Shown here in pieces: positions 1,413 to 62,037 of a stretch of DNA of 64,000 nucleotides. Made by a program: the position numbers and the translations under genes. This DNA is from Chitinophaga pinensis (GTDB lineage Bacteria > Bacteroidota > Bacteroidia > Chitinophagales > Chitinophagaceae), in contig CAMDVD010000006.1 of NCBI GenBank assembly GCA_945878115.1, positions 1 to 64,000 on the forward strand, in the 5' to 3' direction. Below the pieces are notes generated by a model that ran no database searches, was not told the DNA's origin, and saw only the letters and a program-made list of their open reading frames with translations. Each line of letters opens with the position of its first letter. Within the stretch, counting starts at the first letter, position 1.

Positions 1413-1502
1413 GGGCGGCACACACGTCCTGACTGTAAACGTCAGGATCCTTCCATGCCAGGGCGCATGGTACGGGCTTTCCCATCGATCGTTGCCGCAA
1501 TA
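1413..1502 (-). repeat. Structured intergenic repeat, copy A (variant arms)
   Basis: Read on the minus strand this 90-bp element starts TATTGCGGCAACGAT and ends GTGTGCCGCCC, the same termini as five other copies in the window. GCGGCA and TGCCGC can pair as a closing stem. The inner arms differ from the common 82-bp type: one hairpin CCATGC/GCATGG, and one TCCTGAC/GTCAGGA hairpin shared with copy E at 50079-50212. Confidence 0.75.
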
Positions 1503-2172: not shown

Positions 2173-2254
2173 TATTGCGGCAACGATAGAATGGAAATCC
2201 TTTTTTGCTTGCTCTGAAGCAAAAAAGATTGGAATGATAGCGTGTCTGCCGCCC
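2173..2254 (+). repeat. Structured intergenic repeat, copy B (82 bp)
   Basis: Starts TATTGCGGCAACGAT and ends CTGCCGCCC; outer stem GCGGCA/TGCCGC. The inner hairpin is CTTTTTTGCTT-gctctg-AAGCAAAAAAG. Compared with copies D and F the stem changes on both sides (CTT/AAG against CTG/CAG, six T/A pairs against five), which is compensatory. Confidence 0.8.
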
Positions 2255-31896: not shown

Positions 31897-31978
31897 CATT
31901 GCGGCAACGATTGCAACGGAAATCCTTTTTGCTGCGGAGCAAGAAAAAAGATTGAAGTGGAAAGCGTGTACGCCGCCC
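31897..31978 (+). repeat. Structured intergenic repeat, copy C (82 bp)
   Basis: Begins CATTGCGGCAACGATTG and ends CGCCGCCC. The inner arm is CTTTTTGCT/AGCAAGAAAAAAG, an imperfect version with extra bases on the right side. Total length equals copies B, D and F. Confidence 0.75.
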
Positions 31979-40481: not shown

Positions 40482-40563
40482 TATTGCGGCAACGATTGCA
40501 GTGGAAATCCTTTTTGCTGGCTTTGCAGCAAAAAGATTGGAACGTAAAGCGTGCCTGCCGCCC
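40482..40563 (+). repeat. Structured intergenic repeat, copy D (82 bp)
   Basis: Begins TATTGCGGCAACGATTG and ends CCTGCCGCCC. Inner hairpin CTTTTTGCTG/CAGCAAAAAG is perfect around a GCTTTG loop. Lies between convergent genes and directly abuts an AT-rich hairpin. Confidence 0.8.
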
Positions 40564-40604
40564 TACTGTAGCATTAATTTTTTTTCAAAAAATACGCTAC
40601 AGTA
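40564..40604. repeat. AT-rich hairpin repeat abutting copy D
   Basis: TACTGTAGC (40564-40572) pairs perfectly with GCTACAGTA (40596-40604); inside are T and A runs. A degenerate second copy follows at 40606-40648 (TACAATGTAAC ... TACATTTCGGTA). Confidence 0.6.
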
Positions 40605-40690
40605 TTACAATGTAACATTCATTTTTTTTCAAAAAATACATTTCGGTAGAACGCTCATTCTATTATACTATTATCAAAATAAACTGCTTA

Positions 40691-50005: not shown

Positions 50006-50078
50006 CTTTAGTATTTTTTAGAAGAGATAAATGTACAAGGATTTAAGAGCAATACTATTTTTTTCAGAAGAGTAATTT

Positions 50079-50212
50079 GGGCGGCACACACGTCCTGACG
50101 ATAAATGTCAGGATCTGTTTCCGCTCAAAGCAGCGGAATCAAGACTTTCCATTCCAATCTTTTTGCTGCAGAGCCAGCAAAAAGGATTTCCATTTCAAAC
50201 GTTGCCGCAATG
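50079..50212 (-). repeat. Structured intergenic repeat, copy E (134 bp, three arms)
   Basis: Minus-strand reading starts CATTGCGGCAACG and ends GTGTGCCGCCC. It has the common CTTTTTGCTG/CAGCAAAAAG hairpin, an added TTCCGC/GCGGAA hairpin, and the TCCTGAC/GTCAGGA hairpin seen in copy A. It is the longest and most complex copy. Confidence 0.78.
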
Positions 50213-50243: not shown

Positions 50244-50367
50244 TTTTACTTGGAGCAAAAGGAAGACTTTGTTTGGAGCGAAGGAAGGTTTTACTTAGAA
50301 CAAAAGGAAGGCTTCGCTTGGAGCGAAGGAAGGTTTTACTTAGAACAAAAGGAAGGCTTCGCTTGGA
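50244..50367 (+). repeat. 45-bp tandem repeats, about 2.75 copies
   Basis: Units starting TTTTACTT begin at 50244, 50289 and 50334. The first differs at a few positions; the last is cut short and runs into a hairpin. Confidence 0.75.
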
Positions 50368-50381
50368 GTGAAGCCTTCCTT
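50349..50381. terminator. Perfect 12-bp hairpin ending the tandem repeats
   Basis: AAGGAAGGCTTC and GAAGCCTTCCTT pair completely around a nine-base loop. It is GC-moderate and not followed by a clean T run, so termination is possible but unproven. Confidence 0.4.
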
Positions 50382-50449
50382 AAAATAATTTCATTCTTTA
50401 TTTCTATCCTGTCGTATTATTGATAGAATTTTAATAGAGAACAAAACCA

Positions 50450-51685
50450 ATGAAAATATTACATACTGCCGACTGGCATATTGGGCAACTATTTCATGAA
50501 TACGATAGAAGCGATGAGCATCAACAATTTTTATATTGGTTGACCGAAACTTTGGTGTTACAGGAAATAGATCTTTTATTAGTCAGTGGCGATGTATTTG
50601 ACAATGCCAATCCAGCCGCATCTTCTATCAAAATGTTTTATACTTTTTTACATGAAACCAGCAAGCGATTACCTCATATTCAAATGATTATCATCGCTGG
50701 CAATCATGATTCTGCATCACGATTAGAGGCGCCAAAACCTTTACTCGAATCCAGTAATATTCATATCATTGGCATGTTGGAAAGAACAGAGAATCATGCA
50801 ATAAATATCGAGAAATTATTAATCCCAATAAAAAATAAGACGAATGACATTATACTTTGGTGTATTGCTATTCCTTATTTGCGCATGGGCGACTATGCAA
50901 CTATAGAAAATGTATCTAATCCTTATACAGCAAGTGTTGTACAATTATACCAAGATGTATTTCAATTGGCAAATCAAAAAAAACAAGCAGGACAATGCAT
51001 CCTTGCTATGGGACATTTACATGCGGCTAATGTAGACATCCAAGGTCATTCAGATAAAGACCGACCTATCATGGGTGGCGTAGAATGCATACCTGCGAAT
51101 GCCTTTCATGAAGATATTGTATACACTGCACTTGGGCATATTCATAAAGCACAAAAAGTGGGTGGTCGAGAAAATGTACGCTATTCTGGAAGTCCTATTC
51201 CCATGTCGTTTTCAGAACATCAATATAAACACCAAGTGATGATGCTAGAAATAAAAGAAGATAAATTGGTGAATATGAAGGCAATAGAAATTCCAATTTT
51301 GGTACCACTATTACGACTCCCCAAACAACATGAAAAATTAGAAAATGTGTTAGATGAATTAGCCAAACTTCCAACAAAAGAAAATGAAAATAAACTTGCA
51401 CCATACTTAGAGGTACGTGTATTATTGGATGGTCCAGAACCAGCACTTCGACATCTCATAGAAAAGGCAATTGAGAATAAACAAGTCCGTCTGGCTAAAA
51501 TTGATGTACAAAAACAACAAGGCAAGGAGAATACAACGATAGAAACCTTTGACAAACTAGACACACTAAAACCAAGTGACATTTTCAGCAAAATCTATCT
51601 GAAAACATACAACGAAGAAATACCAAACACGCTACAAAAATTATTTCAAGATGTGCTTGAAGAAACGCTAAGCAAAGAAAACTAA
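50450..51685 (+). CDS. sbcD: SbcD, exonuclease subunit
   Basis: 411 residues. Mre11-type nuclease subunit of the SbcCD complex, which opens hairpins and trims DNA ends. The phosphodiesterase motifs are clear: TADWHIGQLFHEYDR (metal ligands D and H), LLVSGDVFDNANP, IIAGNHDSASRL, LAMGHLHAA and TALGHIHKAQ followed by RYSGSPIPMSFSE. The C-terminal capping domain (about 280-411) is present. sbcC begins three bases after the stop codon, so the two are co-transcribed and probably translationally coupled. Upstream lies a long inverted-repeat-rich gap. Since SbcCD cleaves hairpins, its neighbourhood with hairpin repeats is a curiosity but not evidence of a link. Confidence 0.94.
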   Translation: MKILHTADWHIGQLFHEYDRSDEHQQFLYWLTETLVLQEIDLLLVSGDVFDNANPAASSIKMFYTFLHETSKRLPHIQMIIIAGNHDSASRLEAPKPLLESSNIHIIGMLERTENHAINIEKLLIPIKNKTNDIILWCIAIPYLRMGDYATIENVSNPYTASVVQLYQDVFQLANQKKQAGQCILAMGHLHAANVDIQGHSDKDRPIMGGVECIPANAFHEDIVYTALGHIHKAQKVGGRENVRYSGSPIPMSFSEHQYKHQVMMLEIKEDKLVNMKAIEIPILVPLLRLPKQHEKLENVLDELAKLPTKENENKLAPYLEVRVLLDGPEPALRHLIEKAIENKQVRLAKIDVQKQQGKENTTIETFDKLDTLKPSDIFSKIYLKTYNEEIPNTLQKLFQDVLEETLSKEN

Positions 51686-51688
51686 ATT

Positions 51689-54600
51689 ATGAAAATACTT
51701 GCCATACGCATTAGAAATTTAGCTTCATTAGAAGGAAATATAGAAATTGATTTTACCAAAGAACCCTTACATTCAGCAGGCATATTTGCCATTACGGGTG
51801 TAACCGGTGCAGGTAAATCAACCATACTCGATGCGCTTTGTTTAGCCTTGTATGCGAAGACGCCACGATATGAACAAGCAAATGCCAAAGTGGAAGTGCA
51901 AGGCGCTGGCATTTCACAAAATGACGCAAGAGGTATACTTCGTGACGGCACCACAGATGCTTATGCAGAAGTTGAATTTGTTGGGATTGATCAAGAAATT
52001 TATGTATCCACTTGGACAGTTAGAAAAGCAAGAAATAAAGTAGATGGTAGTTTACAAGATGCGCAAATGAGTGTATGCAATAAAGAAACAAAGATTTCAT
52101 TTCCTGCAAAAAAAACAGAAACCTTAAAAGAAATTGAACGTTTAGTTGGCTTAAATTTTGAACAATTTACAAGATCCGTTTTATTGGCACAAGGTGAATT
52201 CACAGCCTTCTTAAAAGCAGATATACATGCCAAATCTTCTTTGTTAGAAAAACTAACTGGCACACATATCTACACCGAAATATCGAAATTAATTTTTGAA
52301 AAAAATAAAGAAGCACAAGAAGTTTTGCAACAATTAAGATTGCAAATGGAAGGCATAGAAATATTAAGCGAAGCCGAAATGCAAATCTTGCAAGAAGAAA
52401 AAAAGACTACTGAACAAACAATTCTTCAATTAGAAAAAGCACTCGAACAACTAGATAAAGAAATTACTTGGAAGCAAAATTGGAAAGACATTCAAGAACG
52501 AAAAAACAAACTAGAAGATGAATTACAATTTGCAATAAATCAGAAAAATGAAATTGCCGATACTGAAAAATTGTTAGTACAAGTAGAGCAAGTACAAGCT
52601 ATCAAATCTGTATTTGAAGCCAAACTACAATCCATAGGACAACAAGATGCTTTACAAGCTAGGTTCCAACAGTTACAAGAGAAAAATACGAAGCAGAAGG
52701 ATGAAATAGAATTAATGGAAAAAGAAGTTTCCATATTGGAAACACAACAAATAAAAGTAAGCGCAGAATTCGCCGATGCAAAACCTCAAATAGAAAAAGC
52801 TAAAGAATTAGACACCATTTTAATTCAAAAAGAAAATCAACTAGCGCATGCTAAAATAGATGAAAAGAATGCGCTTCTTCAGAAACAACAAACTGAAAAA
52901 AAGATAGAAGAGAACAACCTAAAAATTGTTGAATTAAAAATATGTATTCTCAAAATAACTACATGGCAAAATGAAAATATAAGCAGAGAAATTATTGCAA
53001 AAAATATAAATCTGATTGCGGATAAATTGTCTACGCTACAATCTATTCAACAGGATAATAAGAAACAAGTAGATAGCTTAGATTTAGTAGAAAAACAAAA
53101 AACTAAGCTTGTCGAACTTGTTTCAGGCTCGACATCCGAACTACAAAAAAATCAAACAGCAACAGAAGAATTACAAGAACAAATTAATAAGCAATCTCAA
53201 CAATTACAGATTTTTAAAATTGAGGATATTAAGGCAAAAGAAAATGAATACAGACAAAAAGAAAAAATAATCATTTCTGCAAATGGGCTTTGGAAAATTC
53301 TATATCAAACCGAACTAGAATGTCAGCAAAAGGCAACACTATTAGAGAAAAGAAAAACAGAGCTGGATAATTATAAACTTTCGCTGATTCAAACTAAGGA
53401 TAACCTTTCAACAGCTAAAATAAAACGAGAAGCTATTGATAAACAAGTCTCTAAAATGAAGCTGCTTATTGCAGAAAGCGTTACTGAAATGCGCTCTCAC
53501 TTAACTGATGGTGAAGAGTGTCCTGTTTGTGGAAGCAAGGAACATCCCTTTGCGCAGACAAGGGATTTACTGTCTACAAAAATGTTTGAGGAGCTTGAAG
53601 CCGAACAAAAATTACTTAGCGCCGTATTTGAAAAAATCAATAAAGAATATAATCGATTAGAACAATCCATTGAATCTTTAAGCAAGCAATTAGTGGATGA
53701 AGAGAAAGAATTAACACTTAAAAATTCTCAATTATTAAGTTACAAAAATGAGTGGCAGAACTTAGAAATATATTCAGAAATTAAAGAAATTCAAGCAGCA
53801 GAAATGTCCTCTTGTTTAAGTGCAAAAGAAACAGAATTAAATACAGCAATGGGCGAAGTGCAAATTCAATTACAAAATTTTGCGGAAGAAAATAATAAAT
53901 TAGAAATCCTAAAAAACAACTTGAATACAGTAGAAAAAAATCTACAAAAATTATCCGAACAACACCAAAGCAACATTCATCAGCAAGGAAATAATACGAA
54001 TGAAATAACTCGAATAAAAAATAGTATAGAGGAACTGGCAAATAAAACCAATACTCAAATTGCAGATTTGAATAACTATTTTCAACAACCCAATTGGATT
54101 CAACATTGGGAAAAAGATGCCAATGATTTTGAAAATAAATTAAATCTATTTGCTAAAACATGGAATGAAAATAATGAGTCATTATTGGCAAACAACAACA
54201 GCTTAAACTTAGCAACAGCAGCCATTGCACAGTATCAATCACAATACGCAAAGGATGAATTGGATTGGAAGAATAAAGTAAATAATTGCAAACAATTCCA
54301 TGATGAATACCATCAACTCTTCAACCAAAGGCAAGAAATTTTTGAAGGAAAAAAAATAGAAGCCATTGAATTGGTATTCAAAGTAGCAGTGGACAATGCC
54401 ACTGAAGAGTATGATAAAAACAATTCTCTCTTGGCTACAAGACAAATCGAGAAAGCAAAAACAGATGGTGAATGTCTACAAGTTGAAAATGAGATTAAAA
54501 AACAAAAAGAAATTATTATTCAACAAAAAGAATCCATTCAACATTGGTTGCAGAATTATAATACAAAAGCAGAAATTTTGTTGGATGAAATACAACTTTC

Positions 54601-55411
54601 ATCACTCATGCAATACACCCATGCATGGATTAACACAACAAGAAATGATCTTCAAAAAATCAATGATAAAGTAAAACATACACACGCTTTATTGCAGGAA
54701 AACAATCGTACTTTGCAAGAACATATAAACAAAAAAATATCTGACAAAGAAGAAAATATTTTATTAGAAGATAAAGAAAAGACGAAGGAAAATCTGAACA
54801 TCGCAAGAACAGATAAACACAAATTTGAATCTAGAATATTGATGCAAGCAGAGAATGAGAAGAAAGCAGGCAATTTGCAATCTCAAATAAATGAGCAGCA
54901 AATGAGTTCTTCACAATGGGCGAAGCTCAATGAGTTATTAGGTTCGGCAGATGGTAAAAAATTTAGACAATACGCTCAAGAATATACATTGGACGTATTG
55001 CTATCTTACGCTAATATTCATTTAAAAAATTTAGCCGATCGCTATCAATTATCTCGCATTCCAAATACATTGGGCTTACAAATTATGGACTGCGATATGG
55101 GCAATGAAATCCGCACGGTGTATTCATTATCTGGTGGCGAATCGTTTTTAGTTTCACTAGCGCTTGCCCTTGGTTTAGCGTCACTTTCTTCCAATAAAAT
55201 GAAAGTAGAATCCTTATTTATTGATGAAGGTTTTGGCTCCTTAGATGCAACTACATTAAGCATTGCTATGGATGCATTAGAACAATTGCATAACCAAGGT
55301 CGTAAGGTTGGTGTGATATCACATGTACAAGAAATGACAGAACGCATTCCTACGCAAATCCATATTTATAAACTATCGAATGGTAAAAGTAAGTTGGAGA
55401 TAATAGGATGA
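51689..55411 (+). CDS. sbcC: SbcC, Rad50-like ATPase subunit
   Basis: 1240 residues. The Rad50-like ATPase of SbcCD, with ATP-driven opening and tethering of DNA. Walker A is at GVTGAGKSTILDAL (about residue 38) and the ABC signature with Walker B is LSGGESFLVSLALALGLASL then SLFIDEGFGSLD near residues 1145-1190. Between them are two long coiled-coil arms, rich in E, K, Q and L, joined by the zinc hook CPVCGSKEHP at residues 611-620 (Cys611 and Cys614), which dimerises two molecules. The gene is complete. It is followed 17 bases later by a convergent T9SS gene. Confidence 0.94.
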   Translation: MKILAIRIRNLASLEGNIEIDFTKEPLHSAGIFAITGVTGAGKSTILDALCLALYAKTPRYEQANAKVEVQGAGISQNDARGILRDGTTDAYAEVEFVGIDQEIYVSTWTVRKARNKVDGSLQDAQMSVCNKETKISFPAKKTETLKEIERLVGLNFEQFTRSVLLAQGEFTAFLKADIHAKSSLLEKLTGTHIYTEISKLIFEKNKEAQEVLQQLRLQMEGIEILSEAEMQILQEEKKTTEQTILQLEKALEQLDKEITWKQNWKDIQERKNKLEDELQFAINQKNEIADTEKLLVQVEQVQAIKSVFEAKLQSIGQQDALQARFQQLQEKNTKQKDEIELMEKEVSILETQQIKVSAEFADAKPQIEKAKELDTILIQKENQLAHAKIDEKNALLQKQQTEKKIEENNLKIVELKICILKITTWQNENISREIIAKNINLIADKLSTLQSIQQDNKKQVDSLDLVEKQKTKLVELVSGSTSELQKNQTATEELQEQINKQSQQLQIFKIEDIKAKENEYRQKEKIIISANGLWKILYQTELECQQKATLLEKRKTELDNYKLSLIQTKDNLSTAKIKREAIDKQVSKMKLLIAESVTEMRSHLTDGEECPVCGSKEHPFAQTRDLLSTKMFEELEAEQKLLSAVFEKINKEYNRLEQSIESLSKQLVDEEKELTLKNSQLLSYKNEWQNLEIYSEIKEIQAAEMSSCLSAKETELNTAMGEVQIQLQNFAEENNKLEILKNNLNTVEKNLQKLSEQHQSNIHQQGNNTNEITRIKNSIEELANKTNTQIADLNNYFQQPNWIQHWEKDANDFENKLNLFAKTWNENNESLLANNNSLNLATAAIAQYQSQYAKDELDWKNKVNNCKQFHDEYHQLFNQRQEIFEGKKIEAIELVFKVAVDNATEEYDKNNSLLATRQIEKAKTDGECLQVENEIKKQKEIIIQQKESIQHWLQNYNTKAEILLDEIQLSSLMQYTHAWINTTRNDLQKINDKVKHTHALLQENNRTLQEHINKKISDKEENILLEDKEKTKENLNIARTDKHKFESRILMQAENEKKAGNLQSQINEQQMSSSQWAKLNELLGSADGKKFRQYAQEYTLDVLLSYANIHLKNLADRYQLSRIPNTLGLQIMDCDMGNEIRTVYSLSGGESFLVSLALALGLASLSSNKMKVESLFIDEGFGSLDATTLSIAMDALEQLHNQGRKVGVISHVQEMTERIPTQIHIYKLSNGKSKLEIIG

Positions 55412-61955: not shown

Positions 61956-62037
61956 TATTGCGGCAACGATAGTAGTGAAAATCCTTTTTGCTGGCTCTGC
62001 AGCAAAAAGATTGAAACGGATAGCGTGCATGCCGCCC
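61956..62037 (+). repeat. Structured intergenic repeat, copy F (82 bp)
   Basis: Begins TATTGCGGCAACGATAG and ends GCATGCCGCCC. The inner hairpin CTTTTTGCTG/CAGCAAAAAG has a GCTCTG loop. It lies about 70 bases upstream of the batB promoter element. Confidence 0.8.

Follow-up and report, generated by a model that had tools for sequence, protein, structure and literature searches.

Copy E lies at positions 50,079 to 50,212 of the window, by which we mean the whole 64,000-nt stretch of DNA analysed here, from a draft genome of Chitinophaga pinensis (G000; 3.58 Mb, 101 contigs). It carries several hairpin arms, one of which recurs in copy A near the start of the window. The locus raises the question of whether the two belong to a modular family, with hairpins gained, lost or swapped inside a fixed frame as the original prediction proposed, and of what kind of element such a family would be. 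We addressed this by comparing the copies of G000 with those of a close congener, G013, which is also a draft genome (about 180 contigs).

Arms and closing stem of copies E and A

The conserved core of copy E extends from 50079 to 50211 on the plus strand; base 50212 falls outside the conserved CAAT, and the core stops at 50211. Copy E had been described as holding a standard arm, a TTCCGC/GCGGAA arm and a TCCTGAC/GTCAGGA arm, all of which can be read directly, and the RNA fold places all three inside a GC-rich closing stem that reads GCGGC/GCCGC in the sequence. The T arm occupies 50093..50113 (plus strand; TCCTGAC-GATAAAT-GTCAGGA), the S arm about 50118..50138 (plus strand; TTTCCGC...GCGGAA) and the F arm about 50156-50188. 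Comparison with G013 shows that T and S together form a 52-bp hairpin cassette (50093..50144, plus strand) at the site CACG^CT. The plus-strand RNA fold of 50079-50212, with arms T, S and F enclosed by the closing stem, reaches -46.5 kcal/mol (z -5.1), a value that none of 200 shuffled sequences equalled.

The Rfam covariance model RF01705 (Flavo-1) matches copy E at 50145..50198 on the minus strand (model positions 13-65), scoring 44.5 bits against a gathering cut-off of 42, and the match corresponds to the F arm with its internal loops. The window contains four further copies, all on the minus strand, each an 81-bp core with the F arm only, and with Flavo-1 scores of 49.7-61.1 bits. Because the model matches these four as well as the inside of copy E, the “standard arm” is the Flavo-1 hairpin. 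The copy at 2174..2254 (49.7 bits) has an identical counterpart in G013, and the copy at 31898..31978 (52.1 bits) is identical to its ortholog L310 in both core and compared flanks. At 40483..40563 (L032; 61.1 bits) the core is adjoined by two H hairpin units of the GTAGCGTATTTTTTGAAAAAAAATTAATGCTAC type (40564..40646, minus strand), and G013 has ~1.7 kb of other sequence there. The last copy, at 61957..62037 (60.4 bits), has a right terminal repeat (CATGCTTAGTATAGCC) and differs from its ortholog L279 at four positions.

Copy A (1413..1501, plus strand) was expected to share the T arm and to differ in its other arm, and this is what direct reading and folding give: a T arm at 1427..1447 (plus strand) and a V arm (CCATGC/GCATGG) inside the same closing stem as in copy E. 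The fold of 1413-1502 (-33.9 kcal/mol) is more weakly supported than that of copy E, because its z is -2.1 and 8 of 200 shuffles were as good. The T loops are unlike (GATAAAT in copy E, TGTAAAC in copy A), so the two copies have an arm type in common and not an identical recent copy. Copy A has no match to the RF01705 model, despite the common frame.

Downstream of copy E lies a K module of tandem GGAAGGCTTCGCTT-type hairpin repeats (50245..50385, plus strand). Upstream, a possible degenerate left terminal repeat (GCAATACTA...) at 50047..50078 (plus strand) is a candidate element end; copy E thus has at best a worn left terminal repeat, and no recognisable right one. Fuzzy matches to the K-type GGAAGGCTTCGCTT also occur away from cores in the window (14899, 19135, 32894, 37197, 40077 and 48648), so that K, unlike T, may not be tied to the frame. 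Copy E is located between the starts of two divergent genes, one acetyl-CoA-synthetase-like (acs-like) and the other sbcD. Just downstream of it, sbcD and sbcC span 50450-55411 of the window; their products are subunits of a nuclease that cuts hairpins. In G013, copy E's element stands before the start of a gene that is similar to sbcD without having the same sequence.

The F core combines the GC-rich closing stem with a pair of symmetric 3x3 internal loops, which flank a 2-bp stem that covaries. Covariation was assessed in 81-bp in-register cores that passed a sequence filter (67 of 73 in G000 and 66 of 72 in G013; 118 distinct, 117 used), a set that includes related copies, which are hence not independent. 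All 117 distinct F cores have T-A or A-T at pair 17-67 (shuffle maximum 87); pair 21-63 is paired in 115 of 117 (maximum 105), and pair 22-62 in 114 of 117 (maximum 90). The internal loops read TYC/YNC with two-fold symmetry, and on the opposite strand GNR/GRA, which, we presume, could allow sheared G-A pairing. Linker letters at core positions 8-10 and in the last 2-3 bases ahead of each cassette's end (GGGCGGCANNCACG; GCGGAATNNNGA) are hypervariable, although the adjoining stems are almost invariant; of the 61 orthologous pairs of near-equal length, 27 show a change at core 8-10. As for the strand that folds, the minus-strand DNA fold of copy E keeps the three arms (z -4.0), the minus-strand RNA has a rearranged minimum and a centroid that keeps the arms, and the plus-strand RNA fold changes once flank is included. 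Given these mixed results, folds alone give no choice of strand, and wobble counts in the T arms (4 against 5) were of no help in finding the strand that folds.

The closing stem common to copies E and A is not the only frame, since Flavo-1 matches also occur in a second one. This frame reads CGTTCCCCTTCGGGTCGGGC..Flavo-1 hairpin..ATCCCTAACGC, is also written CGTTCCCCTTCGGGTCGGGCTATCACT...TTCTATCCCTAACGC, and carries its own CCCTTCGGG mini-hairpin. Twelve copies were seen in G000 (L009, L038, L084 at C4:51188, L092 at C9:12607, L103, L110, L112, L114, L129, L137, L140 and L148) and one in G013 (L161). The Flavo-1 inner hairpin therefore sits in another closing stem too.

Arm combinations and same-locus changes in two genomes

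Copy E belongs to a repeat family that is not due to chance, as indicated by 112 exact matches in G000 to the pattern GCGGC-N60..90-TTGCCGCAAT (0 for the reversed control), together with Flavo-1 and BLAST matches. RF01705 gives at least 138 matches in G000 at E<=0.001 among 150 scored of 1024 first-look candidates, and 122 of these exceed the cut-off. At least 40 BLAST matches to copy E were found among 40 scored of 170 candidates. A single extraction rule yielded 150 distinct cores in G000 and 93 in G013. Since G013 has 148 Flavo-1 matches, a good part of its copies lie outside the core set. The rule also missed 16 of 104 Flavo-1 or BLAST places checked later (104 of the 145 listed in G000), namely 10 second-frame copies and 6 copies of a mutated GGGCGGC type, TSF in 5 cases; the second-frame copies L009 and L038, beyond the 104 places, were missed as well.

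When these cores are sorted by arm content, seven combinations are seen: F, S, V, TF, TS, TV and TSF. The 150 cores of G000 comprise 96 F, 24 TSF, 9 S, 8 V, 5 TS, 4 TV and 4 TF, and the 93 of G013 comprise 87 F, 3 TSF, 2 TF and 1 V; one TS label (L134) and one TF label in each genome (L094 and L291) stand for worn TSF copies. A pattern allowing up to 3 mismatches finds the T arm at 46 places in G000, and all 46 lie within the frame, immediately downstream of ...CACG or a near match to it; one of them, L043, is without a clear closing partner. The arms are thus not found solely as neighbouring repeats outside the closing stem, and the expectation of a frame holds for T. The frame is larger than supposed, however, with outer inverted repeats, H units on the 5' side and K on the 3' side. 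At one place, L099 (G000:C12:35493-35627), a broken T+S front half runs straight into a complete F core, as two frames fused in tandem.

Change at a single locus is seen in orthologous copies. The flanks of G000 and G013 copies are about 95% identical (median 94.8%), and there are 76 orthologous copy pairs, 69 of them with both flanks matched. Arm content is unlike in 16 of the 76, and in 14 of the 69. Written as G000/G013, the differences are TSF/F in 11 pairs, V/F in 2, TS/F in 1, TF/F in 1 and F/TSF in 1, where one V/F pair (L054/L299) has one weak flank only, the F/TSF pair (L098/L247) has a single flank, and the pair L134/L293 is left out. Copy A and copy 2254, aligned later and beyond the 76, have equal arms in both genomes. 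With seven combinations among the 150 copies and 16 of 76 pairs unlike, the proposal that hairpins are gained, lost or swapped is borne out, and the changes do occur at the same locus; it needs a further amendment, in that E-type copies acquire T and S jointly, as a 51-52-bp cassette.

This cassette is present at CACG^CT in 11 TSF loci of G000 and absent from the G013 orthologs. For example, the only difference between L003 and L318, over the compared flanks and the cores, is 52 bp at CACG^CT. In addition, L158 has a 27-bp single-hairpin insert that L289 lacks, and L062 of G000 carries V where L292 of G013 carries F, within the same surrounding stems and with both flanks matched. Splitting out the cassettes (n=33) gave 27 of 52 bp, 2 of 51 bp and 4 of 27 bp. 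When the cassette is removed, the host core is identical to the ortholog in three of 13 pairs (L003/L318, L127/L268 and L158/L289); L152 has 1 mismatch, three others 3-4 mismatches without gaps, and six are gapped, with up to 8 mismatches and 2 gaps. Each host core was also compared with all other short cores of the partner set (87 in G013, 116 in G000; ortholog itself excluded). In 10 of 13 pairs no other short core beats the ortholog, and in 5 of these none ties; for L006, L060 and L080, respectively, the ortholog is outdone by 29, 7 and 9 other cores.

Other modules change as well. H unit number is unlike in 21 of 69 pairs. Copy E has T, S and F in both genomes, with two H units on its 5' side in G013 and none in G000; its F loop is GCTGCAGAGCCAGC against GCTTGCTTCGCCGC between the genomes, and the K array on its 3' side is long only in G000, with 5 K units against 0 at the G013 site. 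The T stem of copy A shows one compensating and one pair-breaking change between G000 and G013. In 22 of 28 G000 cassettes another cassette is at most 4 changes away and the rest are more worn (L134 excluded, as its near one is its own ortholog). The G000 core set has many more cassettes than the G013 set, and these may have been gained in G000 or lost in G013.

Element ends, target duplications and relatives

Outside the core lie inverted repeats (GGCTAWACTAAA...), with GGC(T)AWACTAAA on the left and TTTAGTTTAGCC on the right, and the element so bounded is mostly about 150-250 bp long. A fuzzy rule, applied to the pooled copies of G000 and G013 with some orthologs counted twice, recognised both terminal inverted repeats (TIRs) in 48 of 243 cores. 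The outer flanks of these 48 elements match best at a length of 8 bp (0.583 against 0.348 +/- 0.024 in shuffled flanks, reached in 0 of 2000), although part of the 48 are without a duplication; elsewhere in the range of 3 to 12 bp, a weak excess was seen at 11 bp alone (0.386 against 0.338, 9 of 2000). H units, AT-rich hairpins between the left repeat and the core, were found in 46 of 150 G000 copies by a fuzzy count, and in 44 of those 46 the last unit is at most 12 nt from the core.

For 73 of the 150 G000 copies, both flanks could be located in one stretch of G013, and 69 of the 73 have a core there. Among the remaining four, L014(-) faces a clean empty site with a single target copy at L264 of G013, the sole clean case; one is a ~1.7-kb replacement and two are too diverged to read. 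As further empty-site candidates, L150 and L176 were rejected for poor alignment in the middle, and L032 (window 40563) because of the 1.7-kb replacement. The marks of a miniature inverted-repeat transposable element (MITE), that is, TIRs at both ends, a target duplication of fixed length and an empty site in a relative, are found in a subset of copies, the clean empty site in one case. A two-ended search at one Flavo-1 locus from each of 11 genomes (the second-frame copy L161 of G013 and loci from 10 further genomes, including two of this genus) found no TIR with target duplication above random positions, so we keep the MITE claim to G000 and G013.

A different interspersed repeat of G000 (L172-L188, e.g., L174, L177, L180-L183, L185, L186 and L188) is bracketed by the same terminal repeat, GGCTAAACTAAAAATGTAATGAG. 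Its inside reads CTCCCTTCTCC...GGAGAAGGGTTGGGGATGAGG, also written GTTTGTTGCTCCCTTCTCC..GGAGAAGGGTTGGGGATGAGGT, so that it has ends in common with the Flavo-1 element and unrelated cargo. Regarding an autonomous parent, three IS1595-type matches (PF12762) were found in G000, none with the element's TIR, and G000's own IS1595 was rejected as parent for that mismatch; among 20 genomes searched with PF12762, no parent with a matching TIR was found. An IS1595-like insertion sequence was seen at L218 of an order-level relative (G090): it is 1074 bp long, with TIR GGCTATATTCTAT... and the perfect 8-bp duplication aatttata. The resemblance to the IS1595 family lies in this duplication length and in a TIR that begins GGCTATA; the L218 TIR is otherwise unlike, and no examined IS1595-type locus has the GGCTAWACTAAA pair around its gene.

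RF01705 matches are patchy, in 64 of 149 genomes including G000, with 1 to at least 29 copies. In other genomes, viewed at one locus each, the core motif is kept, and the closing stem, arms and flanks are unlike. The exact T hairpin was found in seven stretches of named genomes. Three are in the frame and belong to one draft genome, apparently G013 itself; the other four, in Cyclobacteriaceae, Fluviicola, Saprospiraceae and Chitinophagales MAGs, have the T hairpin alone, loop included, and none of these four loci has a Flavo-1 match over the cut-off. T is therefore an independent hairpin type, which in G000 is found only inside the frame. In the Saprospiraceae MAG (L349), the stand-alone TCCTGACGATAAATGTCAGGA hairpin lies near a second palindrome, ATGACGATAAATGTCAT, in which the loop GATAAAT sits on another stem.

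Competing readings and the biology of Flavo-1

We consider it probable, at roughly 0.7, that the copy E family consists of non-autonomous, MITE-like elements with a folded core that exchanges hairpin modules. The full element, seen in a subset of copies, is bounded by TIRs and 8-bp target duplications and has Flavo-1 as its F-type core. Its modules occupy fixed ports: H on the 5' side of the closing stem, T or T+S at CACG^CT, a terminal arm that may be F, S or V, and K on the 3' side. Modules change between orthologous loci, and in most of the tested cases the host core retains the letters peculiar to its locus. A DDE transposase that makes 8-bp duplications may move the element in trans, and an IS1595-like enzyme is our guess. 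Modules might be exchanged by short-tract, structure-prone copying among dispersed copies, for example by template switching, or by loop repair while a strand is single and folded. Paired bases would be kept since the folded strand serves the life cycle of the element and not a gene-specific regulatory RNA.

Other processes acting on DNA could also change the arms. The T+S cassette of 51-52 bp could itself be a mobile hairpin that enters Flavo-1 cores at a single site as single-stranded DNA, without target duplication, in an HUH/Y1-like manner. Such a cassette would account for the one insertion point across orthologous pairs, where no target duplication is visible, and for clean presence or absence, in 10 of 13 pairs without change of host core; the four stand-alone T hairpins in other Bacteroidota records and the 10 Y1_Tnp matches of G000 are consistent with it. 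We nevertheless think it unlikely, as a free insertion sequence should give T arms outside the frame, of which G000 has none, and as T, S and V hairpins were absent from 18 Y1-related loci (16 Y1 loci, together with L016 and L038, which are close to additional Y1 matches). Three of the 18 contain an F-type motif (L343, L338 and L016, a raw count with no chance baseline), the core at L016 lying ~0.4 kb from the Y1 match. The absence of T, S and V hairpins at these loci is also the reason why RAYT-driven REPs were rejected. Ordinary gene conversion, which would replace whole cores, arms included, with no further modular exchange, has about 150 similar dispersed copies to act on. Four of 58 equal-length orthologous pairs differ at 11, 12, 13 and 19 positions, and the three of 13 hosts that fit other cores better (L006, L060 and L080) point to conversion or decay. 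On the other hand, 10 of 13 host cores fit their ortholog at least as well as other short cores, and agreement with the ortholog at core letters 8-10 is seen in 7 of 15 pairs with different arms, compared with 34 of 61 pairs of near-equal length. These proportions, from a small sample, show no clear co-conversion, and we regard whole-core replacement as improbable. The arm differences might also be assembly artefacts of repeats, since both genomes are fragmented drafts and were compared as assemblies alone. This seems very unlikely to us: cassettes begin 14 bp from the core edge, and hence near unique flank where no H array intervenes, several sites are flanked on either side by letters specific to the locus, and the cassette borders are the same at many loci. 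Integron attC arrays we also set aside, on the assumption that dispersed copies without an array do not fit them.

Exchange of modules within a MITE-like element has, in addition, to be weighed against readings in which the hairpins act as RNA. Flavo-1 was described as a likely RNA and judged not to be cis-regulatory (Weinberg et al. 2010, PMC2864571), and a 2022 review names it in the section on the most abundant small RNAs and lists it in a table, in both places without a function (PMC9029176). A structured non-coding or cis-regulatory RNA, as in Rfam, with arms that vary as RNA arms do, would suit the RF01705 matches and the strong covariation, and several Flavo-1 matches in F. psychrophilum coincide with 5' transcribed regions (PMC9723704). 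However, that study obtained no real clue to Flavo-1 function, because matches occur in either sense and many lie outside transcribed regions (PMC9723704), observations that fit a DNA repeat. In our data, neighbouring genes show no orientation preference around 128 copies (raw counts: tandem 39 and 33, together 72; divergent 30; convergent 26), wobble mismatches in T arms have no strand preference (4 against 5), and the 8-bp duplications and the empty site likewise speak against an RNA reading, which we hold to be doubtful. Transcription terminators or 3'-end stabilisers of mRNA, the role of many REP sequences, would likewise be stable intergenic hairpins, and, among the 147 G000 copies whose flanks extend for 600 bp or more, 137 are outside ORFs of at least 100 aa (10 are inside). 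Here, divergent contexts are as common as convergent ones (raw counts without a genome background), copy E itself has divergent genes starting on either side of it, and without placement at gene ends we rejected an intrinsic terminator or 3'-UTR element; this reading we give almost no weight.

Modular repeats have been documented in other bacteria. BOX elements of Streptococcus have end modules that enclose boxB units, of which a copy may have none or several, with TIRs and target duplications; their length varies between strains, and S. suis has other module sets, boxD, E and F (PMC3049150). BOX is likewise a modular interspersed repeat, a likeness of architecture as that paper presents it, for which we claim no sequence relation (PMC3049150); the difference is that here one terminal arm takes the place of another of a different kind, and orthologous copies have or lack a fixed cassette at a single internal site. 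BrickBuilt of P. gingivalis is a Bacteroidota MITE with inner tandem units, which varies in a 23-nt tandem repeat and has irregular duplications, and BrickBuilt and 464/PgRS have similar TIRs around different interiors (PMC4596501). Inner repeats in a MITE, and common TIRs with different interiors, are also found here, but a swap of unlike hairpin arms is not described in the accessible part of that report (PMC4596501). REP/RAYT systems are high-copy palindromes too, and CGTC-tagged repeats occur in Bacteroidetes (PMC3733652). Here CGTC precedes the T stem (CACGTCC), yet the element is far longer, multi-armed, and has TIRs and target duplications, and no T, S or V hairpin is near the examined Y1 genes.

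While modular repeats are already known, here the presence or absence of arms, together with an arm swap, can be followed at the same loci of two related genomes. As arms change at the same locus and the host core is mostly unchanged, the exchange process is directly testable. A further possibility, tentative and in our view doubtful, is a two-level mobile system in Bacteroidota, in which the Flavo-1 MITE core would serve as a docking frame, the T, T+S, H, K and F/S/V cassettes would move site-specifically, and covarying closing pairs would keep them compatible; if this were true, a bacterial “small RNA” family would be a dock for mobile hairpins. In G000 and G013, Flavo-1 is the core of transposon-like DNA. 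The F-type core here is the family of Weinberg et al. (PMC2864571), with the difference that we find it as a transposon-like core with exchangeable arms; in the open-access literature we found no statement of Flavo-1 as mobile or modular. This gives a concrete reason for re-examining Flavo-1, since mobile repeats may be among the “sRNA genes” counted in Bacteroidota.
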